NCBI RefSeq assembly: GCF_023078835.1
Contig: NZ_CP090898.1
Span: 2,110,045 to 2,174,044, forward strand
Direction of reading: 5' to 3'
DNA length: 64,000 nt
DNA from: Synechococcus sp. NB0720_010
GTDB lineage: Bacteria > Cyanobacteriota > Cyanobacteriia > PCC-6307 > Cyanobiaceae
In this document: positions 33,255 to 36,517 of the stretch, in pieces
Layout: the number at the start of each line of letters is the position of its first letter
Position numbering within the stretch: position 1 is the first letter of the stretch
Position numbers and translations under genes: made by a program
Notes under the pieces: generated by a model
Told to the model about the DNA's origin: nothing
What the model saw: the letters and a program-made list of their open reading frames with translations, nothing else
Databases searched by the model: none

Positions 33255-33596
33255 TCAGTCCGGGATCTCGAGTTGGGATTGCTTTTGCCGGAGCTGCTGC
33301 TCCAGGCGATCGATGCGGCCCCGCAGTTCATCCACCTCCCGCTGGCGGGCCAGGCCCAGGTCCTGCAGTAGGTGGTCCAGGTTGCGCTCGACCTGCCGTT
33401 CGGTCTGTTTCTCCAGCTCGGGGTTCTCGCCGCGAAGGCTGGCGAGAACGTCATCCACCAAGGCGCTGGCCTGGTTTGGATCCAGGCGCCCACTGCTGAC
33501 CCAGGCCTGGGTCACGCTCCGCAGGCGATCGGCCACCAGTGAAGTGGTGCCAAGGCCGCGGAAGAGAAGTTGTTGCAGGGTCCGGCTGGGATCCAT
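33255..33596 (-). CDS. Phasin/PhaF-like coiled-coil protein
   Basis: A 113-residue helical protein. The N-terminal half (LLFRGLGTTSLVADRLRSVTQAWV) is amphipathic and the C-terminal half (QVERNLDHLLQDLGLARQREVDELRGRIDRLEQQLR) is a coiled coil. The pattern resembles the phasin or PhaF/PhaI group, but no polyhydroxyalkanoate genes are nearby. The function is therefore unknown. It marks the left border of the low-GC island. Confidence 0.6.
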   Translation of the reverse strand: MDPSRTLQQLLFRGLGTTSLVADRLRSVTQAWVSSGRLDPNQASALVDDVLASLRGENPELEKQTERQVERNLDHLLQDLGLARQREVDELRGRIDRLEQQLRQKQSQLEIPD

Positions 33597-33989
33597 ATCA
33601 CTTCTTTAGTGGTAAGCGAGCTGAGCTGATCAGAGAGGGTTGGCGCCAGCTCTGCCTTTTGCTGGTCTAGCTGGCCCAGAGTTCAGGCGCCTATGAACAG
33701 TGCGCCTGACCCAAGCACACCAACAGTTTTGAGTATGGCCAGGCTTGTGGTTTATCTGATCGCGTGAGTCATCCTTTTTGCCTGCTGAGTTGATGCTCTG
33801 CTGGAGCGCGGCGTGCTCTTTATGGACCCAGTTTCTTATGCATTGTTCGAATCATTAAGGATCGGGATTGAGAGGCTTCCTTGATACTCGCGATTGGCAG
33901 TACATGCAGAAGATCTGCTGCGTATTTGAGGCTTGATCCCTTGGGTTGCTGAAGGTTAATAGCTTGGTCTAGATGGAGTTGGATTCACG
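33597..33989 (+). other. Intergenic region of lower GC, left edge of the island
   Basis: About 390 bases without a convincing gene. Base composition shifts to clearly higher A/T here. A tiny open frame of 24 codons (33693-33767) is present but has no support as a gene. There is no repeat or integrase recognition site that I can see. Confidence 0.5.
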
Positions 33990-34772
33990 ATGACGGTGCC
34001 AGGGCCTTTCGCTTCGGTCGTTGTCTTGCTTGATGGAGTGAATCTCTTTTTGATGGGCTTTGTTGTGATCTTTCTGATCATCAGTGCTCGCTCTGTTCTG
34101 ATCGCTCTTGTCTCGGGGCTCTTGCTTCGAGATGGTCCCAACTGTTTTGGCCGAGCGAATGCCAACGATCTTCGACTCAGCTTTTCGTCTTCATTGGTCT
34201 TCGCTTGTGTTGGCTCAGTTTCGCTGATCCTGCATGGATCTGGGTACGTACAGCTTTACCATCACGAGTCTGAATGGCAGCTTCCTTTTCAGTTGACAGG
34301 ATTTCTTGGTGTTTTGGCTGTGCAGGATGCCGTCTTCTACTTTGTTCATCGCCTTCTGCATCATCCTGCCCTCTACAGGATTGCGCACCTAGGGCATCAT
34401 CGGTCAAGGCATTATTCAGCCTGGACTTCATTTGCTTTTGACCCAATCGAGTCACTCTTCCACTCTGTTTTTATTGTGGTTGTTGCGATGGCCGTTCCGC
34501 TTCACTTCGTCACACTGTTTGCCCTTCTTGTGACGATGTCTGTTTGGGCTGCTTTGAACCACATGCCGCCGGCTGGATTGCCGGAGGCATTTCCTCATCA
34601 CTGGTTGGGGCGTTGGTTGATTGGCCCTGTTCATCATTCCATTCATCATCAAAAACAGGGCTCTAACTTTGGACTTTATTTCACGTTCTGGGATCTTCTA
34701 TTCGGAACGCAGGATCAGGGCTACGCTCGAAGTGTCTCGCGCGTTGTTAGAAAAGATTCACTGTTGCGTTGA
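33990..34772 (+). CDS. Membrane di-iron hydroxylase/desaturase (sterol desaturase superfamily)
   Basis: A 260-residue integral membrane protein with several hydrophobic segments and the histidine clusters of the fatty acid hydroxylase/sterol desaturase family: H120xxxH124 in VHRLLH, H133xxHH137 in AHLGHH, His191 in LNHMPP and HHSIHH (215-220). These form a non-haem di-iron site that hydroxylates or desaturates lipids or carotenoids. The substrate is not readable from sequence. It converges on the divergent psbA gene across a shared terminator. Codon use is A/T-richer than neighbours, suggesting recent transfer. Confidence 0.85.
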   Translation: MTVPGPFASVVVLLDGVNLFLMGFVVIFLIISARSVLIALVSGLLLRDGPNCFGRANANDLRLSFSSSLVFACVGSVSLILHGSGYVQLYHHESEWQLPFQLTGFLGVLAVQDAVFYFVHRLLHHPALYRIAHLGHHRSRHYSAWTSFAFDPIESLFHSVFIVVVAMAVPLHFVTLFALLVTMSVWAALNHMPPAGLPEAFPHHWLGRWLIGPVHHSIHHQKQGSNFGLYFTFWDLLFGTQDQGYARSVSRVVRKDSLLR

Positions 34773-34780
34773 ATGGCTCA

Positions 34781-34812
34781 AAAAAGGACTGGTGAAATTC
34801 TCGCCAGTCCTC
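34781..34812 (-). terminator. Terminator between hydroxylase and psbA
   Basis: A 7-base-pair stem (GGACTGG 34786-34792 with CCAGTCC 34804-34810, loop of 11) lies between the two converging genes. On the reverse strand it is followed by a T run (complement of the A run 34780-34785), so it should end psbA transcripts. It may work weakly for the hydroxylase, too. Confidence 0.75.
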
Positions 34813-34862
34813 CTTCTCTTGATTGCCTCAGTCAGGGCTTTTGTCTGTTGGATCCGCCATTT

Positions 34863-35927
34863 TTACGTCATGGCTATTTGGAGTGTGCTTGAGACCGCAA
34901 GATCAAGTGGGAAATTGTGCGCATTCCTTTCGTGCATGGCTTCGATGCCAAGATCTGTCCGGTTTAGTACATCAGCCCAGCTGTGAACGACACGACCTTG
35001 AGGATCAAGGATCGATTGATTGAAATTTAGACCATTCAGTCCAAAGGAAAAGCTGGCGATTGCAAGGGACGAGAACCAAATCCCGAGTACTGGCCATGCA
35101 AAGAGAATGGCATGGATACTTCGGCTGTTATTCAATGCTGCATAGGGGAAGACGAGCCGACCGAAGTAGGCGTGAGCTGAGACGATGTTGTAAGTCACCT
35201 CCTTCTGGCCAAAGCGATATCCACGATTAATCGACTCCTGTTCTGTGGTTTCTCGAACCAGGTTGCTTGAGACGAGTGATCCATGAACTGCCGCGAGGAG
35301 TGCCCCCCCAAATGTTCCGGCTACGGCAAGCATGTGAAATGGATGCATTAATACATTGTGTTCAGCTTGGAGGACAAGCATGAAGTTGAATGTGCCCGAT
35401 ATTCCAAGAGGCATTCCCTCTGAAAACGAGCCCTGGCCCATTGGGTAAACCAGAAGTACAGCCATTGCTGCTGACCAAGGTGCTGAAAAGGCAATGGCAA
35501 TCCACGGCCGCATTCCTAGGCGATAGCTCAATTCCCACTGCCGCCCCATGTAGGCCGTGATGGCGATCAGAAAGTGAAAGACAATTAATTGGTACGGTCC
35601 GCCGTTGTAAAGCCACTCATCCAGACTTGCCGCTTCCCAGATCGGATAAAAATGGAGTCCGATGGCATTTGAGCTGGGCACGACTGCGGCGGTAATGATG
35701 TTGTTCCCACTGAGTAGTGATCCTGTGATGGGTTGCCTGACGCCGTCCAGGTCGACACCCGGAGCGCTGAGGAAGGCAATCACAAACGCCGCAGTGGCAG
35801 CGAGGCTCGTTGGAATCATCAAGACCCCAAACCAGCCGATGTAAAGCCTTTGGTTGGTCGAAGTGATCCAGTCTCCAAATGCAGACCAGGTCTGCAGTCC
35901 ATTGCGGTTGGACAAGAATGTTGTCAT
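34863..35927 (-). CDS. psbA: Atypical photosystem II D1 protein
   Basis: This 354-residue D1 homologue aligns with standard D1 without gaps. The start is ATG at 35927, with AAAGGA six bases ahead. Conserved: Tyr161, His118, His198, Fe ligands His215/His272, and Mn4CaO5 ligands Glu189, His332, Glu333, His337, Asp342 and Ala344. Changed: Asp170 to Glu, Glu65 to Gln, Glu130 to Gln, Ser264 to Ala, Phe265 to Leu, Gly80 to Ala, Phe158 to Leu, Thr286 to Ser, and Val at 345, where Ser/Ala normally follows the CtpA cleavage site. Gly80Ala and Phe158Leu are two of the three changes reported for the microaerobic D1'. The gene sits in a low-GC stretch. It is not ChlF, since the ligands remain. Confidence 0.93.
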
Positions 35928-36220
35928 GAAAAGTCCTTTGAGGTTCAGTCCCGCTGCCAGACTTGTGGCACTCAAATGGCCCGGCTATTTCGGGAGCTGG
36001 TGAACGAAGAAAGTGCATTTCAAGGATCTTGATTCCTCAGTGATCTCTGCACCTTCTCCGATAGACCCTGATGCCTTCCCTCTGGGCCTTTGGGTTTCGC
36101 TGTATCTTTGCTTCACTTTGGCTTCAAGCCAATGTCGATCGATCTAAATCTTCTTTTTCTAGATGCAGAACCGCTGCATTTCCTCCTTGGATCTGCAGGT
36201 GTTGGCTTTTCCTTAGCCAG
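35928..36220 (-). other. Upstream region of psbA
   Basis: Nearly 300 bases between the divergent psbA and the next forward gene. It should hold the psbA promoter and probably that of the forward gene. I found no clear -35/-10 pair at good spacing and no known operator. The open frame starting at 36071 runs through it, but its first 50 codons look non-coding. Confidence 0.4.
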
Positions 36221-36517
36221 TTGATTCATAATCCTGAGGTGGATTCACTTCGTCGCCGCAGCATCAGCGAGCTCAGTCTTCGTGACTATTGCCTTTATCG
36301 GGCTATTTGCTCAGAGCTCGAGGTTCTCGAGGACTCCATTCAGATTGATGGTCAATCAGGCGGTCATCTTCTAGAGCTGGCGGTGGCCATGCGTGATCGA
36401 CGTCTCCTTGTCGAGTGGTTGCGTGAATTGGGGTATCCCCCAAGCTCTGATCTCAGCTACAGCGGTATCACTCCAGAGTTGGAAGAGCAGCTGATCACCC
36501 ATGGATCTGATTGGTAG
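36221..36517 (+). CDS. Small hypothetical protein, helical
   Basis: About 98 residues of charged, helical sequence: RRRSISELSLRDYCLYRAI and LLELAVAMRDRRLLVEWLRELGYPP are protein-like, unlike the upstream part of the frame (open from 36071). The start is uncertain: TTG at 36221 or GTG at 36239. No family recognised. It lies on the right side of the low-GC island, divergent from psbA. It might be a PSII-associated or regulatory protein, but there is no evidence for that. Confidence 0.5.
   Translation: MIHNPEVDSLRRRSISELSLRDYCLYRAICSELEVLEDSIQIDGQSGGHLLELAVAMRDRRLLVEWLRELGYPPSSDLSYSGITPELEEQLITHGSDW

Follow-up and report, generated by a model that had tools for sequence, protein, structure and literature searches.

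D1 proteins of photosystem II (PSII) are usually met as packages, in which the full set of Mn ligands accompanies a standard QB niche, or an odd niche accompanies the loss of ligands. The window analysed here, a stretch of 64,000 nucleotides from Synechococcus sp. NB0720_010, contains a psbA gene that raises the question of what a D1 of mixed composition is, from which class it descends and what it may do. The initial annotation described a mixture that fits no known D1 class, which is right in substance: no other D1 read carries that set of residues.

The variant psbA gene and its product

The variant psbA is placed on the minus strand at 34863-35927, from the ATG at 35927 to the stop at 34863-34865; the plus-strand reading of the same coordinates gives 15 stops. 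The frame is intact and encodes a D1 of 354 amino acids. Solved D1 chains of the PDB match it from end to end (residues 1-348 to 1-354), and it scores 630.8 bits against the NCBIfam psbA equivalog, above its cut-off of 596.05 bits. The source genome of the window (G000) is one contig of 2,410,448 bases, 99.99% complete. The count of other psbA copies that was proposed with the initial annotation gave four beside the variant (n=5), and psbD is present twice. Three of the four encode mutually identical proteins, 71% identical to the variant D1, and the product of the remaining one is 72% identical. Between the variant and the standard D1 of its own genome 103 aligned positions differ. A gene for the microaerobic form D1' was not found in the psbA set of this genome.

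Codon reading confirmed the residues first listed as kept (Tyr161, Glu189, His190, His332, Glu333, His337, Asp342 and Ala344) and those listed as changed (Glu170, Ala264, Leu265, Gln65, Gln130, Ala80, Leu158 and Val345). It also revealed that His215 and His252 are retained and that Pro261, Lys242, Ala253, Ile271, Leu211, Val214, Trp151 and Ser286 are further changes, absent from that list. On the minus strand, codon 170 (35418-35420) is GAG, with Glu for Asp, and codon 65 (35733-35735) is CAA, with Gln for Glu. The codons 252-272 of the QB niche (35112-35174) keep His252 and change residues 253, 261, 264, 265 and 271, and the C-terminal ligand and processing region (34893-34934) reads His332, Glu333, His337, Asp342, Leu343 and Ala344, followed by Val345.

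The variant was compared with 104 other D1 matches, including three members of the same branch (L009, L010 and L034). Asp170 and Glu65 are each present in 104/104, such that Glu170 and Gln65 are unique to the variant in this set. Glu170 is otherwise found only in rogue-type D1 among the proteins read, and Gln65 occurs in no other row of the D1 alignments, which cover the class-genome D1 set and the Glu170 pattern set. Ser264 and Phe265 are each present in 101 of the 104 matches, and the remaining three are the branch members, with Thr264 and Ser265. Other changes are unremarkable alone: Gln130 (51/104), Ala80 (16/104) and Leu158 (15/104) mark classes and are found in many D1s. Val345 was found once more among the 104.

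Distribution and surroundings of the branch

The relatives of the variant were searched with a nucleotide pattern encoding P-Y-A-[A/T]-x-[D/N]-N-S-R over 400 family genomes from 59 genera. This Pro261 pattern, like the Glu170 pattern used below, requires exact codons, so that variants may be missed, and it was not designed for rogue niches. It matched eight of the 400 genomes; seven of the matches are D1, all in the genus of the window (G000, G002, G008, G013, G016, G017 and G023). In the sole match beyond the genus, G067, no D1 was seen, and on this pattern an extension of the branch to other genera was rejected. The branch is thus present in 7/25 genus genomes, several of which are incomplete drafts, and no member was seen among the 80 genome-contig loci listed. 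Its hallmark is Pro261, Ala or Thr264, a residue other than Phe at 265 and all the C-terminal ligands.

The closest relative of the variant is the gene of G017 (L008), which is 81% identical and has Ser265, and four further genes of the genus are 74-77% identical. Tight clustering with ordinary D1 proteins that share all the changes, named in the initial annotation as the observation that would speak against a divergent D1, was not seen, the 81% relative being devoid of Glu170, Gln65 and Leu265. Glu189, His190, His332, Glu333, His337, Asp342 and Ala344 are retained in 7/7 branch genes. At residue 170, readable in six of them (G023 has only a fragment of the gene), the variant has Glu and the other five have Asp; these five also have Glu65. 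Consequently, the change common to the branch is on the QB side. The modified oxygen-evolving complex proposed in the initial annotation may therefore apply to the source strain, given its Glu170, and fails for the branch as a whole, since five of the six other members, those readable, have Asp170.

The five branch genes aligned in full have in common Ala80, Gln130, Trp151, Met155, Leu186, Ala212 and Pro261. Ala80 is present in 6/6 readable members and Leu158 in 4/6, with Phe158 in L008 and L010, and Ala286 occurs in one member (L034). Among L009, L010 and L034 the dN/dS values are 0.05-0.09, which shows purifying selection in these three; dS is saturated in every pair that involves the variant or L008, and the values cover the three only. 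A D1' gene coexists with the branch gene in G002 and G008.

The GC content is 0.49-0.54 at 33.5-36.5 kb of the window, and most flanking 500-base intervals have 0.61-0.70 (one has 0.56). This low-GC stretch (33500-36500), in a genome otherwise GC-rich, holds a fatty acid hydroxylase gene (PF04116; 33990-34772, plus strand), the variant psbA and a small ORF, and may be an acquired or an old relocated segment. Cyanophages carry psbA, and the low GC would suit a phage-derived gene. Such an origin is extremely improbable: the 512 phage records that match are all at 60-80% identity (best 72.0% among the matches listed), the best among the 80 viral-contig loci listed reaches 73%, and the viral rows of the 74-row tree described below fall among standard D1.

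Among the further neighbourhoods that were compared, none was seen with the hydroxylase gene next to a branch psbA. The small ORF starts at 36071 on the plus strand, divergent from psbA, and its conserved part (36251-36517) comprises about 90 residues without a Pfam family match. It is divergent from the branch psbA in G000 and in G017 (as P0002), and elsewhere it is not beside psbA. It is present in 10/25 genus genomes; among the 14 with completeness of 90% or more and contamination of 5% or less, it occurs in 6/6 with a branch D1 and in 1/8 without, with a Fisher p of 0.0047 that ignores kinship.

In G002, G008, G013 and G016 the branch psbA and a TspO/MBR gene are divergently oriented (regions L207 8558-10300, L208, L209 and L210); TspO/MBR was called by Pfam for the L207 copy and by similarity for the others. 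A chromate transporter is near the branch psbA in G002, G008, G013 and G023, with no TspO in view in G023. A conserved operon was rejected, given that the genes of G000 and G017 lie elsewhere than beside TspO/MBR. Apart from the arrangement that G000 and G017 have in common, a shared neighbourhood was seen only among close kin. No PSII or low-oxygen gene was seen beside branch psbA among neighbours of which some were given a family search, and no regulator site emerged when the upstream regions of six branch genes were crudely scanned for motifs.

A further possibility is that the gene is a decaying or little-used copy that serves no special purpose in the source strain, its Glu170, Gln65 and other private changes having come about by drift or by errors in sequencing. 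The codons of Glu170 and Gln65 are indeed private to this strain, each one base off the usual codon, the gene is in the low-GC stretch and its terminal branch is fast (0.27 in the 74-row tree). On the other hand, the frame is intact, all ligands except Asp170 are kept together with His215 and His252, the genome is a single contig and the branch is kept in seven of the 25 genus genomes. Pro261 and the loss of Ser264 and Phe265 recur in relatives and are therefore not sequencing errors. This explanation is considered very unlikely.

Relation to the other D1 classes

Microaerobic D1' (group 3) has as type genes Synechocystis psbA1 and Thermosynechococcus psbA2, and is marked by Ala80, Leu158 and Ala286. 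The variant is about 73-75% identical to D1' and shares with it Ala80, Leu158, Leu186, Val192, Ala289, Phe293, Ala330 and the intact Mn ligands. It differs in Pro261, Ala264, Leu265, Ile271 and Lys242, in Glu170 and Gln65, and in Ser286, which replaces the Ala286 of D1' and counts against a D1' reading. With standard D1 (group 4) the identity is about 71%; the Mn ligands, Tyr161, His190, His215, His252 and the processing end are shared, whereas the QB niche and residues 65, 170, 80, 158 and 286 differ, and the variant does not have the standard set of Ser264, Phe265, Asp170 and Glu65. The mark of ChlF (group 1), described as H252Q with changed cluster surroundings (PMC10535343), is absent from the variant, which keeps His252 and the ligands other than 170. 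Engineered QB-niche mutants reported in PMC11645544 (Chlamydomonas F265S/T and Synechococcus 7942 position 264) have residues 264 or 265 altered, as in the variant, but are single changes in a standard D1, whereas the variant is a natural set of changes.

Two further kinds of D1 were encountered. L228 (G433:C41:177932-178999) has intact Mn ligands and an odd QB niche (Gly260, Arg261, Thr264, Thr265) in the standard-D1 part of the tree, and is perhaps a second independent niche change. The D1s L213 and L214 are very divergent (about 52% identity): residue 170 is Ser, the C-terminal ligands usual for D1 are missing, and both fall far from the remaining rows. They are presumably of the Gloeobacter type.

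Rogue/sentinel D1 (group 2) was approached in two ways. A survey of D1s from 69 class genomes, with 40 stretches taken, gave eight rogue-type D1s with Glu170, seven of them with Pro261. In addition, a Glu170 codon pattern matched 39 of 289 class genomes, at 44 places. Among the 29 pattern loci read (28 new ones and L116), 24 are readable Glu170 D1s, one is a fragment and four (L254, L259, L265 and L116) are not D1; the 14 places without a locus comprise four already counted and ten outside the reading. Since four of the 24 repeat members of the earlier eight, 28 Glu170 D1s were read besides the variant. In the family, a common occurrence of Glu170 was rejected, as the pattern matched two of the 400 genomes, one of which (G174) has no D1 there.

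Glu333 is absent in 28/28 of these proteins and Asp342 is present in none; the L261 match ends before residue 342, which is Leu in L220, a second reading of that place. The variant is thus the only Glu170 D1 read in which the other Mn ligands are intact. Pro261 is present in 26/28 and a residue other than Ser264 in 21/28, and on these alignments Glu170 and Pro261, with Ala or Gly264, appear as the marks of rogue/sentinel D1. The variant has in common with this class Glu170, Pro261, non-Ser264, Leu211 and Ala80. It differs in Glu333 and Asp342, and in Glu189, which it keeps and most rogue proteins do not (Glu189 in 2/24 pattern rows). As far as its residues tell, the variant D1 joins a backbone like that of D1', its Mn ligands intact except at 170, to a QB niche and a Glu170 of the rogue type.

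The phylogeny proposed with the initial annotation was run with standard, D1' and rogue rows, and the branch groups with D1' in four trees. Matches shorter than about 280 residues or below 40% identity were left out. Clustering removed near-identical rows, and for the smaller trees further ones were deliberately set aside. The branch genes of G008 and G023 are outside the trees, which contain no confirmed ChlF row. In the first tree (74 rows) the branch has support of 100/98 and joins ten D1' rows, mostly picocyanobacterial, with 92/89, and two further D1' rows with 95/98. The second tree, without columns 170 and 257-272 and without six rows (two long Gloeobacter-type and four viral), groups the branch and D1' with 99/91. 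A third tree with 21 rogue rows gives 98/90 for this grouping, and 100/97 with the two further D1' rows; the rogue D1s stand apart from the branch. The fourth tree, without 170, 211-215 and 244-275, gives 97/90. In all, the branch sits next to the picocyanobacterial D1' rows rather than within them.

Descent of the Glu170 and Pro261 of the variant from an ancestor shared with rogue D1 would make the branch a ligand-complete sister of that class, a relic from before the loss of Mn ligands. The AU tests do not reject a forced grouping of branch and rogue (p 0.185, 0.101, 0.273 and 0.187; for branch and standard, p is 0.0585), and Leu211, Pro261, Val/Leu214 and Ile/Val271 are in common. Nevertheless, this sister relationship is quite unlikely: apart from the four trees, the branch has at 186, 192, 289, 293 and 330 the states of D1', not those of standard or rogue D1, the Glu170 of the variant is absent from the five other readable members, and, of the 59 genera of the family that were searched, one gave branch members. 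At the 51 positions where the majorities of D1' and rogue differ, the branch majority agrees with D1' at 32, with rogue at 12 and with neither at seven.

The rogue-like states tend to fall in one region, which includes the QB site. Among the 32 variant states unseen in D1' and standard rows, ten occur in rogue rows, with 7/12 inside 211-275 and 3/20 outside (Fisher p 0.018, for a region chosen after looking). Over residues 241-280 the variant reaches at most 0.53 identity with rogue rows and 0.70 with D1' rows, and a rogue gene therefore does not look like the source of the niche; a gene conversion of the QB segment from rogue D1 is accordingly unsupported. Descent from D1' with convergence on a rogue-type QB pocket is, on these alignments and trees, quite probable.

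Proposed working and its implications

On the donor side, the high-affinity site for assembly is provided by Asp170, a bridge between Ca and Mn4 (PMC4853684). The reports on engineered D170E conflict, which counts against the reading favoured below: activity near that of the wild type is described in PMC8047818, little effect in PMC10535343, which also cites Mn4+ without O2, partial O2 evolution with perhaps a partially functional cluster in PMC9304363, and an altered Mn redox signal during assembly in PMC4853684. Post-translational conversion of ligand-site residues is also described (PMC9304363). Glu65 and D2-E312 are described as a proton-sharing pair (PMC12569156), and Gln65 should thus disturb one proton step. 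On the acceptor side, the distal oxygen of QB is bound by Ser264 and Phe265, and His252 protonates QB (PMC12096807, PMC10535343). The Chlamydomonas mutants F265S and F265T are reported to have almost no driving force from QA to QB and to grow autotrophically, with a need for strong light (PMC11645544).

The absence of Ser264 and Phe265 from the branch, considered with the behaviour of the F265S/T mutants, leads to the proposal of a water-oxidising, acceptor-throttled PSII. The lineage would have come from microaerobic D1' with the donor side ligand-complete and the D342-L343-A344 processing end retained, and the QB niche would have been rebuilt at positions also changed in rogue/sentinel D1 (211, 214, 253, 261, 264, 265 and 271). 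When the variant D1 is swapped into PSII, the Mn cluster would assemble, with Glu170 in the source strain, and water would be oxidised. The lost Ser264 hydroxyl and Phe265, together with Pro261 and Ile271, would weaken the binding and protonation of QB. With a small driving force from QA to QB, electrons would back up on QA, and the centre would be slow in weak light and altered in herbicide sensitivity. Such a throttled PSII may serve under low oxygen, when the plastoquinone pool is over-reduced or under a similar stress. The effect on QB and the purpose of the variant D1 are what we infer from its residues; that it still oxidises water is somewhat probable.

The same residues may be read as a sentinel-like D1 in the making, an inactive or near-inactive placeholder PSII in which Glu170, Gln65 and the rogue-type niche stop net O2 evolution before the C-terminal ligands are lost. 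All 28 other Glu170 D1s read are of the rogue type, the QB niche of the variant converges on that of rogue D1, and the Cyanothece sentinel D1 is described as a dark placeholder (PMC9640542). A placeholder is rather unlikely, though, for a branch in which Glu333, Asp342, Glu189 and Ala344 are kept in every gene, Asp170 in five of six readable ones, and three members are under purifying selection; D170E alone reportedly does not abolish activity (PMC8047818, PMC9304363).

The best reading is a conditional, D1'-derived and ligand-complete psbA paralogue of one picocyanobacterial genus, with a rogue-type QB pocket gained by convergence, and it is held with about even confidence. The initial proposal of a low-oxygen, stress or dark variant with an altered acceptor side appears plausible because the nearest kin in the trees is D1'. 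Given that D1' is described as the isoform of microaerobic conditions (PMC5061849), this kinship suggests a low-oxygen trigger, a tentative suggestion that is somewhat less probable than otherwise. No earlier description of the branch was found in the literature searched, which left out Cardona 2015, Wegener 2015, Murray 2012 and Sheridan 2020, so that an earlier description is possible.

The branch uncouples the Mn ligands from the QB niche, and therefore the effect of a rogue-type niche on a possibly water-oxidising centre becomes directly testable. It is conceivable, though doubtful, that it represents an additional functional type of D1, giving a natural water-oxidising PSII without redox drive to QB that arose from D1' and converged with rogue D1, and that the source strain adds to it a natural ligand-complete Glu170 D1, with the residue predicted for the ancestral D0. 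Ancestral reconstruction as presented in PMC8047818 favours Glu170 in D0 and claims that Glu170 supports water oxidation, and it is on this claim that the source strain, a natural case of Glu170 with the other ligands in place, bears.
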